Positions 1-4,003 of a stretch of 60,035 nucleotides of DNA are shown here, one piece after another; position 1 is the first letter of the stretch, and each line of letters begins with the position of its first letter. The stretch is from Deltaproteobacteria bacterium (GTDB lineage: Bacteria; Desulfobacterota; Dissulfuribacteria; Dissulfuribacterales; JALVPX01), in contig JALVVK010000024.1 in assembly GCA_027023445.1 (NCBI GenBank), positions 1-60,035 of the forward strand. Reading direction: 5' to 3'. The notes beneath the pieces were generated by a model that had not been told where the DNA came from, did not search any database, and worked only from the letters and a program-made list of their open reading frames with translations. The position numbers and the translations under genes were made by a program.

Positions 1-55
1 TCTTCAATAATATCAACAAGTTATGCTCCGCAATAACTTATTGATATTGTTAGAT
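1..55 (+). repeat. attC-like recombination site (first, at window edge)
   Basis: An inverted repeat pairs 9-24 with 33-48 (16 bp arms, one non-Watson-Crick position, 8-nt loop). It is followed by GTTAGAT at 49-55, which fits the integron core-site consensus GTTRRRY. The matching left core at about 1-7 is degenerate and may begin outside the window. Three further sites of the same design follow, which is the main support. Confidence 0.55.
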
Positions 56-110
56 TTTCCTGGTATCCCCCCAGCCATTGGAAAACTCCAGCCAATCCGC
101 CCTAAAAAAA

Positions 111-284
111 ATGGGAAACTTTAGTTACAAAGCATTAATGCCCGATTTTAAAAAACTTGTTGAAGAGGTCTATAACGAGCTAATCAACTATATAAAAAGA
201 GAAAAATTAGCAAACGTACAAGATGCTTTTAAGGAATTTTTAAACCCTCCCGAGTCTGCTTTAGAAGACCCAGGGGCTCCATAA
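111..284 (+). CDS. Small integron-cassette protein of unknown function (57 aa)
   Basis: A short ORF between two attC-like sites, in the position expected for a cassette gene. I prefer ATG at 111; a TTG at 78 in the same frame would add 11 residues. The product is charged and mostly helical (lysine-rich centre, Pro-rich C-terminus), with no membrane segment, cysteine motif or catalytic motif that I recognise. No family can be assigned. Base composition is AT-rich, like the next two cassettes and unlike the bulk of the window, which fits acquisition by recombination. The ORF could be spurious because it is short; its place in the array is the best argument for it. Confidence 0.45.
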   Translation: MGNFSYKALMPDFKKLVEEVYNELINYIKREKLANVQDAFKEFLNPPESALEDPGAP

Positions 285-319
285 TCATAGAGGTTTGGAC
301 AATAGGCAACAAGAAAAAC

Positions 320-391
320 ATCGAACAAAGGCATTCACTCTGATCCCAAAAGCCTGGCGGCTTTTGGGCCAGGTGATGCCCAGCGTTAGCT
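320..391 (+). repeat. attC site (second)
   Basis: Core GTTAGCT lies at 385-391 and a degenerate left core ATCGAAC at 320-326. Between them two nested arms pair: GGCATTCAC with GTGATGCCC, and CCCAAAAGCC with GGCTTTTGGG, separated by short unpaired bases as in folded attC sites. Total length 72 bp, typical of short attC sites. Confidence 0.7.
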
Positions 392-399
392 GTTTGTAA

Positions 400-1173
400 A
401 TGTCCTGGCAGGATGAACTAAATATGAATAATTTCTTACAAATTCTTGGGTCAATTGCATCAATTGGAGGAATCCCACTCGCCATATACCTCTATTTAAG
501 AAGTCGAGAAGCAAAATTCAGTAAATTGAAAAGAGATATCGTTAAAATATTATCCTACCAAATTGGGGAAGGAAGAAATTTATCGACATTTGAAATGCAA
601 GCTGTAATTGACTCAAAAATAAGGGAAGCAGGAATAAAGGGGAACAATTTAAGCGTTTCTGAAATTGTTGAAGACTTAGTTGCTGAAACCATCTCAAGCC
701 CAATGTTAGATAGTGAACGTAAAAAAGATATCCTGTCTAATCTAAAATCGATTCATCAAAGAGGTGACATATTATCGGTTATTGATAGATATAATTTGCA
801 GTTTACTGACTTTCTAAAGGGAATTCAAAATAAAGTAAAACTTTCACAAGAAGATTTACAAATCATTGAAACCGAGTCTCCTGAAATCAATTTGGAAAAA
901 ATTTCAAAAAAGTTAAAAAGAACAGATAAGATATCAGAAATTTTTGGTTTCATCGCAGGTATTGCTACTGTGGTGGCTATGTTTATTTCCTTATTGAGTG
1001 AATCAACCCTTACAGATTCTCTATCTGTTTTTTTTAAAGACAACCAACAATTACTTCAAATTATTCTTGGGATTACAGCTTCAATTATTGCCTCCGTGAT
1101 AACATTTTTTGTCACTCATATTTCACGAAAAAATAAAAAAAGAGAGATAAATCTAAAAAATAAAAGCAGCTAA
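400..1173 (+). CDS. Cassette-encoded membrane protein of unknown function (257 aa)
   Basis: The ORF starts 8 bp after an attC core, and its TAA stop lies inside the next attC core (1168-1174), the classical compact cassette arrangement. An in-frame ATG at 424 with an AGGA 11 bp upstream is an alternative start. One hydrophobic segment near residues 12-30 and two near residues 180-200 and 215-240 suggest a membrane-anchored protein. The charged middle part (about 35-175) is predicted helical and probably cytoplasmic, and the tail is Lys-rich. GC content is very low compared with the rest of the window, a sign of transfer. I do not recognise the family. A role in phage defence or stress would be speculation based only on cassette context. 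Confidence 0.75.
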   Translation: MSWQDELNMNNFLQILGSIASIGGIPLAIYLYLRSREAKFSKLKRDIVKILSYQIGEGRNLSTFEMQAVIDSKIREAGIKGNNLSVSEIVEDLVAETISSPMLDSERKKDILSNLKSIHQRGDILSVIDRYNLQFTDFLKGIQNKVKLSQEDLQIIETESPEINLEKISKKLKRTDKISEIFGFIAGIATVVAMFISLLSESTLTDSLSVFFKDNQQLLQIILGITASIIASVITFFVTHISRKNKKREINLKNKSS

Positions 1174-1298
1174 CAAATCATTTCAGTGGATTTGCTAACC
1201 TCGGCGGTTTTTCGAAGATCATTGGTGTAAATTTACTTCTGTGGTTATTCCAAGTTGGTTGCGGTAATTCCGCAAGCCACTGAATTCAAGCGTTAGCT
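1168..1298 (+). repeat. attC site (third, long form)
   Basis: Left core AGCTAAC at 1168-1174 is the exact complement of right core GTTAGCT at 1292-1298. The arms continue with TTCAGTGG near 1182 pairing with CCACTGAA near 1277. Length 131 bp, similar to the long attC sites of sedentary chromosomal integrons. Confidence 0.85.
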
Positions 1299-1311
1299 GT
1301 GAAATACGTGC

Positions 1312-2103
1312 ATGTATTATTCGAAGGTTAAAAGAGAAAAATATGGACCATGTAACTTATGCCGAAAGGAAGCAGATCTGACATGGGACCATGTTCCACC
1401 CAAAGGTGGAATAGAGTTGTCTTCTGTGGAAATGCGAACTATTCTGCAAACACTGTCAGGTGATCCAAATAAAGACAAATTTAGAATATCTCAGAATGGC
1501 GTAAAGTACAGAACGTTATGTAAGGATTGTAATAATTGGCTTGGGAGAGAATTTGACCCAGTTTTGAATAAATTTGCGAATGATGTGGCGCTTTTTGTAC
1601 GGTCTCCTTTGCATCTACCGCCAGTTTTTAAAATTGAAACTGTGCCGCATCGATTGATAAGGGCAATTTTAGGACATCTTGTCGCTGCGAAATCGGAATT
1701 AGACGATGTTGTTTTCGATAAACAGGTTAGAGAATTCATCTTTGATTTTGGATTACCTGTACCTGAAGAAATTAACATTTTTTACTGGATCTATCCTTAT
1801 CCGGTTCAGGTAATTCTTAGGGATGTTGCGATGCCATCAAAGCGAGGTGGTTTTTCTAATTACATGTTTTGCCATCTCCTTAAGTATTTCCCCGTAGCCT
1901 TTTTAGTATCAACGGCGAAAGAATATGAGGGCTTGTTAGAATTAACAAAGTATCGACATGCAGGGCCAGATGATATGGTCAATTTACAAATTATATTGAG
2001 TAACGTGCCTAATCAACATTGGCCAGAGGCGCCTGACAGGGGAAATATAATTTTCGGTGGGCAAGCAATGGTAAGTTCTGTAATTGGGTCACCTCGAAAA
2101 TGA
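1312..2103 (+). CDS. HNH-endonuclease-like zinc-finger protein (cassette gene, 263 aa)
   Basis: The N-terminal 80 residues carry an HNH/treble-clef signature: C14-x2-C17, then D26-H27-V-P-P-K, then C70-x2-C73-N-N. In HNH nucleases the DH pair supplies the general base and a metal ligand, the Asn orients the His, and the CxxC pairs bind a structural zinc. The remaining 180 residues have no motif I recognise and may bind a substrate or partner. The gene starts 13 bp after attC and ends 12 bp before the next attC, so it is a complete cassette without a visible promoter of its own. Likely roles for such a nuclease are DNA cleavage in restriction or abortive infection; this is inference. Composition is AT-rich relative to the chromosome. 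Confidence 0.75.
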   Translation: MYYSKVKREKYGPCNLCRKEADLTWDHVPPKGGIELSSVEMRTILQTLSGDPNKDKFRISQNGVKYRTLCKDCNNWLGREFDPVLNKFANDVALFVRSPLHLPPVFKIETVPHRLIRAILGHLVAAKSELDDVVFDKQVREFIFDFGLPVPEEINIFYWIYPYPVQVILRDVAMPSKRGGFSNYMFCHLLKYFPVAFLVSTAKEYEGLLELTKYRHAGPDDMVNLQIILSNVPNQHWPEAPDRGNIIFGGQAMVSSVIGSPRK

Positions 2104-2115
2104 TTATGAGCAAGC

Positions 2116-2190
2116 AGCTAACAAGCGGCTCAACACCGGCTGGCAACTCCGCTGCGCTCCGTTGCCAGCCGGTTAGCCGCGGCGTTAACC
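2116..2190 (+). repeat. attC site (fourth)
   Basis: Left core AGCTAAC at 2116-2122 and right core GTTAACC at 2184-2190 flank strongly paired arms (AGCGGCT with AGCCGC, CCGGCTGGCAAC with GTTGCCAGCCGG). Extra unpaired bases on one arm are typical of attC recognition. Length 75 bp. Confidence 0.85.
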
Positions 2191-2211
2191 GCCAAGGAAT
2201 AATAATACGAT

Positions 2212-2616
2212 ATGGATAATTCATTAGTTTTTTGTGGTCAATGTGGTCTTGAACTCGAAGAGGACACGAGTGTTCCCTCTGATTGTCGTAAGCCATGCCC
2301 GATGTGCGGCTCAAAGACCCGCAAGTTTCATGTAGTGCTCCAAGATACTATGACGTTCAAAAAAAAACTCCTAATTAAAGGACGCCATTCAAAAGGTAGA
2401 AAGCCGTTCATAGAAGAAGTCTCAGGTGACGATTTACACAGGAAGTCTGGTGAGTGGATGAAACTCAGGCGGGTCATAGATCGAGATAACGATATCTACC
2501 ACGAAGTAGTAATAGATCCAAAAACTGGTAAAGTGATCCACGAATGTAAAGAACCGCTTTCCAAACATCGTGGTCATGGATCTGCCAAACATAAACGAAA
2601 AAAAAAGAGCGGTTAA
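2212..2616 (+). CDS. Zinc-ribbon hypothetical protein (last cassette, 134 aa)
   Basis: The N-terminus has C8-x2-C11 and C29-x2-C32, a rubredoxin-like zinc ribbon. The C-terminal half is basic, with a DPKTGKVIHECKEPLSKH-type segment and a run of lysines at the end. Proteins with this ribbon plus basic tail recur as uncharacterised cassette or island genes; I cannot name a function. The stop codon TAA (2614-2616) lies inside GGTTAA, which looks like the left core of the next attC (GGTTAAC), but that site is not continued; a group II intron tail follows instead. GC content is higher than in the two preceding cassettes, so the cassettes probably have different origins. Confidence 0.75.
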   Translation: MDNSLVFCGQCGLELEEDTSVPSDCRKPCPMCGSKTRKFHVVLQDTMTFKKKLLIKGRHSKGRKPFIEEVSGDDLHRKSGEWMKLRRVIDRDNDIYHEVVIDPKTGKVIHECKEPLSKHRGHGSAKHKRKKKSG

Positions 2617-2686
2617 TCGGGTAGCCAGGGGTTTTTCTCCCCCAGCCCCCACACCACCTGGCATGCGGGTCCGCACCAGGCGGTTC
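2617..2686 (-). mobile_element. Group II intron 3' end (domains V and VI), truncated
   Basis: Read on the minus strand, 2686-2653 forms a 34-nt hairpin starting GAACCGCC, the size and shape of group II domain V (outer stem ACCGCCTGG with CCAGGTGGT, inner stem TGCGG-ACC-CGCA). It is followed by a GGGGGCTGGGGG / CCCCTGGCTACCC hairpin with an A-rich loop, as in domain VI, and ends CTACCCGAT at the cassette-4 stop. The preceding segment (to about 2715) also looks like the usual lead-in to domain V. No reverse transcriptase or intron 5' end is present, so the element is a remnant. Its antisense orientation in a would-be attC site fits the group IIC-attC introns, which insert in the bottom strand of attC. 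Confidence 0.55.
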
Positions 2687-2824
2687 ACGAAGATTACCGG
2701 GCCGTAGCCGGGTATTTTTGCATCAAAAACAATTGGCGGAAAGTTTATGATACCTGGAGAAACTTTCTCATGTCCGTGGCACCAGCTGCCAGATACACCT
2801 TGAGATTCGGAAGGCATGGGAACA

Positions 2825-2908
2825 TCAAGGGGCCTCAAGGGTGGAGACAAGCATTGCCAGGGTGGCAGGTGAAAATCCGTTTTTCTTGCCAAGGTTTGAT
2901 TCTGCCAT
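2825..2908 (-). other. Tiny ORF with strong ribosome binding site (27 aa)
   Basis: A GGGAGGGG motif precedes ATG at 2908 by about 7 nt, and the frame encodes MAESNLGKKNGFSPATLAML followed by seven residues and a stop. It may be the truncated 5' end of a gene destroyed when the flanking element was inserted or deleted. No homology is recognised. Apart from this and the intron tail, the 2617-2991 gap holds nothing clear. Confidence 0.25.
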
Positions 2909-2991
2909 GGTGATCCCCTCCCGATGAAAGTATATTCCATTCACCATGACATGATGACATGCCCGCCCATGGCTGGGCAGATGGGGTTTAA

Positions 2992-3912
2992 TTAGCGCTT
3001 ACGTCCACCAGCTGGCGGTCCGCTGAGGTTATTCCCTGCTTTGCGTCCACTGAGGGCGTTTACCAGTTCATCAAGGGGGGAGATGGGCAGGGCGGTGAAA
3101 GGAGCGCTGTTAAATGTTTCGGGATTTTCGACTACCCGATTGGCAGTTATTTCTCTCAGCTGGACATCCAGCCGCAGGGGGATTTGCGTGAGGTCGATTG
3201 TCATGCTGGAGGGGTAGTATGCGTTTCGTAATCCACGGAGGATTGCCGGGGCATGGTAGATGATGTTCATGTCGCCGGTGGTAACGTTGTCCGGAATGAC
3301 GGTGAAGTCCTTTCTGAAGGATGCCTCGGCTGTTTCATGGCGGCCCTTCTGGCAGCGTATGGTTATGTATGGGCTGTTGTGAGCGCCGGTGGATTCTGGG
3401 CGGCAGGGGAGGGTGTTTTGCTCAAGGACGATACTCCAGGGGTTAAGGGCAAGGCTCGCCTCCTGGAGCAGGAACGCCGGGTTAATGGCAGAGGCAGGGA
3501 TGCCGTGTCCGTTTAATGATGGGTCATGTATCATGGGCTGCCAGAAGACCCGGTTGTATTTTGGTATGTAGAGCCAGAGGGCATGTTCGTCTATCAGCAG
3601 GTCAAAGGCGGTCATTCCCAGAGGGCCCATGCCGTGAACCCTTAGGCATTGTCTGCCCTGGTCTTCCCGCCAGTTCAGCACAAACCTGATTCTCGGCCCG
3701 GCCTTGCCACGGAGCGTAATCCGGACATGTCCCCGCAGAAGCAGGCCCTTTATCCCCTCGCCCTGCGCCCGTATCTTTTGCAGCGCCGCATGATCCTCCC
3801 ATGTGGCGGCAGGCGGCGTTATGGCGCCGGGCCTGATGCAGCCGGGAAGGGATGCAAGCAGCAGGACAGGCGCGAGCACGCGGAGAAGGCGAAAGAATTC
3901 CTGTTTAGACAT
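2992..3912 (-). CDS. Outer-membrane-type lipoprotein (LolB/DUF4292-like)
   Basis: I take ATG at 3912, because it gives a normal lipoprotein signal: basic start, hydrophobic stretch LLRVLAPVLLLASL and lipobox L-P-G-C. The mature 280 residues are rich in beta-strand, with a pattern (an early conserved R/K-x-R-x-x-L-R-G-x-V-x-I region and later Y-x-P-K-x-N-x-V-F) like LolB/LppX-type antiparallel-sheet lipoproteins that hold a lipid acyl chain. Likely anchored in the outer membrane facing the periplasm. It ends with a Gly/Pro/Arg-rich tail. It is followed on its strand by a weak hairpin near 2960-2975. Assignment to the fold is moderate; the cargo or partner is unknown. Confidence 0.6.
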   Translation of the reverse strand: MSKQEFFRLLRVLAPVLLLASLPGCIRPGAITPPAATWEDHAALQKIRAQGEGIKGLLLRGHVRITLRGKAGPRIRFVLNWREDQGRQCLRVHGMGPLGMTAFDLLIDEHALWLYIPKYNRVFWQPMIHDPSLNGHGIPASAINPAFLLQEASLALNPWSIVLEQNTLPCRPESTGAHNSPYITIRCQKGRHETAEASFRKDFTVIPDNVTTGDMNIIYHAPAILRGLRNAYYPSSMTIDLTQIPLRLDVQLREITANRVVENPETFNSAPFTALPISPLDELVNALSGRKAGNNLSGPPAGGRKR

Positions 3913-3934
3913 AAAGAACACGGCGAAAAAATAA

Positions 3935-4003
3935 TCTTTGTACATATCACAAATTACAACTCACAATTTATCATTCACAATTCACAATTCATAATTTATT
4001 CCT
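3935..4003 (-). repeat. Repeat A, partial degenerate copy
   Basis: An AT-rich stretch of tandem CACAATT/ATTCACAATT units resembles the reverse complement of the middle of repeat A (compare 29070-29100). It lies between the lipoprotein and SDR genes and overlaps the SDR stop. Confidence 0.4.

Follow-up and report, generated by a model that had tools for sequence, protein, structure and literature searches.

A probable integrase-less integron remnant between an IS-like repeat and a truncated group II intron

The cassette array at the contig end

The window analysed here, a stretch of 60,035 nucleotides (60 kb), is the entire contig C24 of a draft genome of 2.24 Mb that consists of 142 contigs and is 99.4% complete. 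Position 1 is the contig end, and nothing is readable to its left. The left part of the window holds four co-oriented units (cassettes A to D) that lie between the end of a repeated element and a group II intron fragment, beyond which chromosomal genes begin. The features are as follows, with attC scores from the covariance models R1 and R2 described below.

1–124, strand not given: end of a repeated IS-like element and assembly break, shared as 124 identical bp by five contig ends
125–385, plus strand: cassette A, cut short at its 5′ end by the repeat (~125–284 of the coding sequence remains), ending with the attC site at 320–391
320–391, plus strand: attC of cassette A (R2, 29.0 bits, E 2e-5)
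386–1292, plus strand: cassette B, ORF 400/424–1173 (249–257 aa), bounded by two attC sites
1168–1298, plus strand: attC of cassette B, 131 bp (R1, 44.6 bits, E 1.7e-8; R2, 42.9 bits, E 3e-9)
1293–2184, plus strand: cassette C, ORF 1312–2103 (263 aa), HNH-like (CxxC...H...CxxCN; PF14279, PHROG 21495)
2116–2190, plus strand: attC of cassette C (R2, 42.8 bits, E 3e-9)
2185–2615, plus strand: cassette D, ORF 2212–2616 (134 aa), zinc-ribbon protein with a basic tail; its attC is an R″ half-core only
2616–2772, minus strand: 5′-truncated group II intron, antisense to the cassettes (RF00029)
2992–3945, minus strand: chromosomal gene outside the array, with relatives elsewhere in the order (27 other genomes)

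The units are compact and carry a single ORF each, as a preliminary description of this DNA had it, and the array is indeed more AT-rich than the chromosome, with 38.2% G+C where the remainder of the window has 51.9%. Outside the array no 800-bp window falls below 42.9% G+C, and cassette B has 32.6%.

Two covariance models were used to locate attC sites. Model R1, for which class 1 resistance integrons supplied seven attC sites and a cyanobacterial plasmid one more, was run over the whole window and found the site at 1168–1298 with confidence and nothing else. Because R1 was too narrow, model R2 was built on 16 attC sites that adjoin intI in other genomes of the order, together with three class 1 sites; none of them came from the present genome. 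The R2 structure contains 87% standard pairs, and neither any of 500 shuffles nor any slid version equalled its covariation. Unfiltered scans covered the full 60-kb window and selected contigs of the genome. In the window, unfiltered R2 identified exactly three attC sites, all on the plus strand, of canonical geometry and within 1.9 kb of one another. The next match (E 0.89) falls on the opposite strand of one of the three, and no other site in the 60 kb was found at E < 0.8. A strict geometric scan gave no match in 300 Markov-random 3-kb sequences and, in the window, passes only the site at 1168.

The three sites are alike in having an R″ core of 7 bases, spacers of 5 bases and, on the 3′ side, of 6 bases, three pairs and, at position 16, an extrahelical base; their cores are of the GTTRRRY/RYYYAAC type, as had been proposed. 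The bottom strands are predicted to fold well (z −5.0 for the single-stranded DNA fold of the bottom strand of 320–391); this same site has a poorly matched R core and the lowest score of the three. The loop of the site at 2116–2190, TCCGCTGCGCTCC, recurs among the attC sites of arrays of the order that carry intI.

In a genuine cassette, the R″ core at the 3′ end is complementary to the cassette's own first bases. Cassettes B and C start with TTAGCTGT and end with GCAGCTAA, each with 7/8 complementarity, and cassette D starts with TTAACCGC and ends with GCGGTTAA (G/TTAACCGCC ... AGCGGTTA(A)), with 8/8. Such complementarity is thus present in B, C and D; the start of cassette A is lost. The ORF at 78–284 (68 aa) starts within the repeat and only ~125–284 belongs to the cassette, so cassette A is truncated. 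Two stop codons lie in cores, as previously remarked: TAA at 1171–1173 in AGCTAAC, and TAA at 2614–2616 in GGTTAA.

Comparison of the cassette proteins with PADLOC defence models, Pfam and NCBIfam assigned nothing over cut-off. The protein of cassette B, for which no family scored over cut-off and no relative was found in 297 genomes of the phylum or in plasmids, has an apparent N-terminal and two C-terminal membrane segments, as judged by eye. The HNH-like protein of cassette C matches PF14279 below threshold and PHROG 21495 at E 1e-15. A single-protein scan of a collection of genome contigs with this protein gave no match; its relatives came from an alignment scan, and occur in Ignavibacteria, Bacteroidetes, Proteobacteria, cyanobacteria, Firmicutes and others, often outside arrays. 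Two of them lie directly beside attC (loci L092 and L104): in a gammaproteobacterial metagenome-assembled genome the HNH-like gene is directly followed by attC (L092, 927–1779), and in Marinobacter litoralis attC directly precedes the gene (L104, 361–1237). This HNH-like family, related to PHROG 21495, is a recurrent cassette passenger beside attC in unrelated bacteria. Relatives of the cassette D protein are few and distant (Thermomicrobium and Rhodococcus plasmids, and one in the 297 genomes of the phylum).

Repeat and intron at the two boundaries

Positions 1–124 are identical at the ends of five contigs (C24, C45, C67, C8 and C97), and in all five unique sequence begins at the same base, after ...GGGAAACTTTAG. 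The repeat folds as a strong hairpin ~70 bases from the end of the element, and a diverged copy of this hairpin is found near the start of C95 (L144, 150–192). No transposase was seen for the repeat, of which one shared end is represented in five places while the interior is unassembled. We consider 1–124 to be probably one end of an insertion sequence, at which the assembly was interrupted. The same repeated element lies behind several assembly breaks of the genome. Since the left side is a collapsed repeat, there could be further cassettes past it, or an intI missing from the assembly.

The preliminary description counted four attC-like sites and suggested a covariance-model search. Three sites (320–391, 1168–1298 and 2116–2190) scored clearly in that search. 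The leftmost candidate, at positions 1–60, was rejected: it is part of the 124-bp repeat and was scored by neither R1 nor R2 over the whole window, and it had been called attC because the repeat forms a hairpin. Both boundaries of the array, the IS-like repeat and the group II intron, had been overlooked; the flanks were out of reach for that description.

On the right, the array does not finish with a fourth attC; the attC of the last cassette is cut at R″ by the intron. A match to RF00029 (domains 5–6) at 2616–2685 on the minus strand scores 45 bits (cut-off 40) and places the intron 3′ end exactly at 2616, in the R″ core of cassette D's attC. Five further copies of this 3′ end, three on C1 and one each on C27 and C50, all adjoin attC-R″-like sequence. 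The position reported for group IIC-attC introns is TTGT/T within R″, on the bottom strand of attC, and their orientation is antisense to that of the cassettes (PMC7923331). The 3′ junctions of the window copy and of the five others follow this TTGT/T rule; the 5′ junction of the window copy is lost. In one C1 copy both junctions are legible (GGCATTGT/intron/TAAGCTT). The 5′ exon of another C1 copy differs (CAGCCGCTGG), so that the rule does not hold cleanly for 5′ junctions. Intron-related matches comprise RF00029, RF02001, RF01998 and maturase fragments; no maturase over the family cut-off was found in the genome, where only fragments occur.

More dispersed repeats, ~89–96% identical to stretches of C82, C59 and C29, lie at positions 2766–3000, after the intron fragment and before the first chromosomal gene. 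An empty site was sought by way of the right-flank gene, whose relatives were too distant for comparison.

Integron pieces elsewhere in the genome

A second array lies on C1 at 12.3–16.3 kb (L021, 4300–8300, minus strand) and encodes ORFs of 128, 230 and 155 aa together with a MazE/MazF pair (PF04014, PF02452). It is a further CALIN (a cluster of attC sites lacking an integron integrase), interrupted by three group II introns, all at the same attC position (R″ cores). A lone cassette, which reaches to ~7505 in L084 and has an ORF of 433–466 aa, lies between chromosomal genes on C126. The attC sites of these two pieces are the following.

C1 15821–15893, array on the minus strand: attC, 53 bits
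C1 14180–14312, array on the minus strand: attC, 28 bits
C1 12999–13072, array on the minus strand: attC, 23 bits
C126 82060–82151 (L084, 6061–6152), strand not given: attC of the lone cassette, 49 bits

The ends of the C126 cassette match each other (G/TTGTGCC...GGCACAAC; GGCACAAC / GTTGTGCC), and this cassette is possibly an attG-type insertion. The sequence AATGGTAAAT is seen on both of its flanks.

No intI is present in the window, in agreement with the preliminary description. The sole integron integrase of the genome is encoded on C14 (L018, 3393–4322), internal to the contig and 3.4 kb from its left end. It matches TIGR02249 at 356 bits (cut-off 265) and shares 44% identity with IntI1 across 97% of its length. 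In an alignment that also contained IntI1 and 17 IntI proteins from the order, the C14 protein is without 16 residues where the 17 relatives and IntI1 have ALxRKYPxA..., the IntI-specific helix that lies between conserved boxes, and carries H277N, a change of the catalytic histidine of HxxR (HisII) that all 17 relatives and IntI1 keep. From IntI structures, the IntI-specific segment is known to contact the extrahelical bases of attC. The ORF is open, and R146, K171, R280, H303 and Y312 are retained (five of the six positions of R-K-H-R-H-Y). No attC was found beside this intI or anywhere on C14; with the IntI patch and HisII gone and no attC adjoining, what lies on C14 falls short of a complete integron. 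Across the order, intI occurs in 24 of 46 genomes, and in relatives with a whole IntI the gene adjoins attC sites of the same type as those in the window. The C14 IntI is probably inactive.

An array probably without a working integrase

Taken together, positions 125–2615 are very likely an integrase-less integron remnant (CALIN) of four co-oriented cassettes with three intact attC sites, an IS-like repeat on the left and a group II intron on the right. At least two clustered attC sites, as in a CALIN, are present, and the 60-kb window contains no intI, its left side being cut by the assembly break. The preliminary description was right about the nature of the array. It had left the choice between the far end of a chromosomal integron and an integrase-less cluster, of which the CALIN fits better, as the sole IntI is on C14, damaged and away from any attC. 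The cassettes would most likely have been captured in the past by an integron integrase acting on attC hairpins. The IS-like repeat truncates the first cassette, and the attC of cassette D is interrupted by the group II intron, which would have entered its folded bottom strand at TTGT/T. In this genome the integron now appears to be dismantled, decaying and dispersed. Because the single IntI is isolated, has no adjoining attC and is probably inactive, the array would be effectively frozen.

It is conceivable, because the window begins at a contig end inside a repeat, that the window instead belongs to a larger and complete chromosomal integron, as its distal end, with intI and attI to the left of the assembly break; the orientation of the cassettes places the attI side on the left, and about half of the genomes of the order carry intI. 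An intact intI could likewise be absent from the assembly only. We nevertheless hold the distal-end reading to be unlikely, since the only IntI found in the genome is internal to C14, has no attC around it and bears two lesions. A quite improbable alternative is that this IntI acts in trans, with the arrays on C24 and C1 and the cassette on C126 as targets of a working dispersed system that uses attG-like sites. The lone C126 cassette with its matching ends would suit such a system, as would the open C14 ORF with its remaining catalytic R, K, R, H and Y, and attG insertion has a precedent in other integrases, reported in literature cited in PMC12901181. Against it, HisII and the IntI-specific patch are lost where relatives keep them, and the introns and the repeat sit undisturbed in the arrays. 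A live, diverged C14 integrase that does without the extrahelical-base patch and goes on inserting cassettes at scattered genomic positions in this lineage is highly improbable.

An explanation of the inverted repeats as terminators of transcription, or as palindromes that arose by chance between ordinary genes, has almost no probability. Hairpins alone are common and relatives of cassette C often lie outside arrays, but the sites score against the profile with canonical spacers and the extrahelical base, R″/R′ complementarity spans each cassette, and the unfiltered R2 scan already contradicts this explanation, as it finds three sites within 1.9 kb and no more in the remainder of the window.

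Read as an integrase-less remnant, the locus belongs to a kind of system that is already known (CALIN), is ordinary among such remnants and leaves the picture of integron function unchanged. One genome here displays the stages that have been proposed for integron decay: a lone integrase without its defining helix and one catalytic residue, two or more places with orphan arrays, a single isolated cassette, and attC sites blocked by group II introns. CALINs have been proposed to be degraded integrons (PMC9024848). As in the CALIN of IntegronFinder, the array has at least two close attC sites, one ORF per unit and no intI in the 60-kb window; it departs from a typical CALIN in nothing essential, except that both ends are damaged by mobile elements. 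A close parallel is the CALIN of Halorhodospira halochloris (PMC7923331), with truncated group II introns, toxin–antitoxin cassettes in the arrays of the genome and an insertion element at the edge. The introns of H. halochloris, however, belong to group IIB and its genome has no intI at all, whereas here the insertion point is of the IIC-attC kind and a damaged intI is present. The intron resembles group IIC-attC introns in its location in the attC R″ core at TTGT/T and its antisense orientation to the cassettes; it differs from them in that the window copy is only a 3′ fragment, in a genome where no intact maturase was found. Finally, the array shares with the chromosomal integrons of the same order the attC family with the TCCGCTGCGCTCC loop, but in those integrons the arrays adjoin an IntI with a complete patch and HisII.
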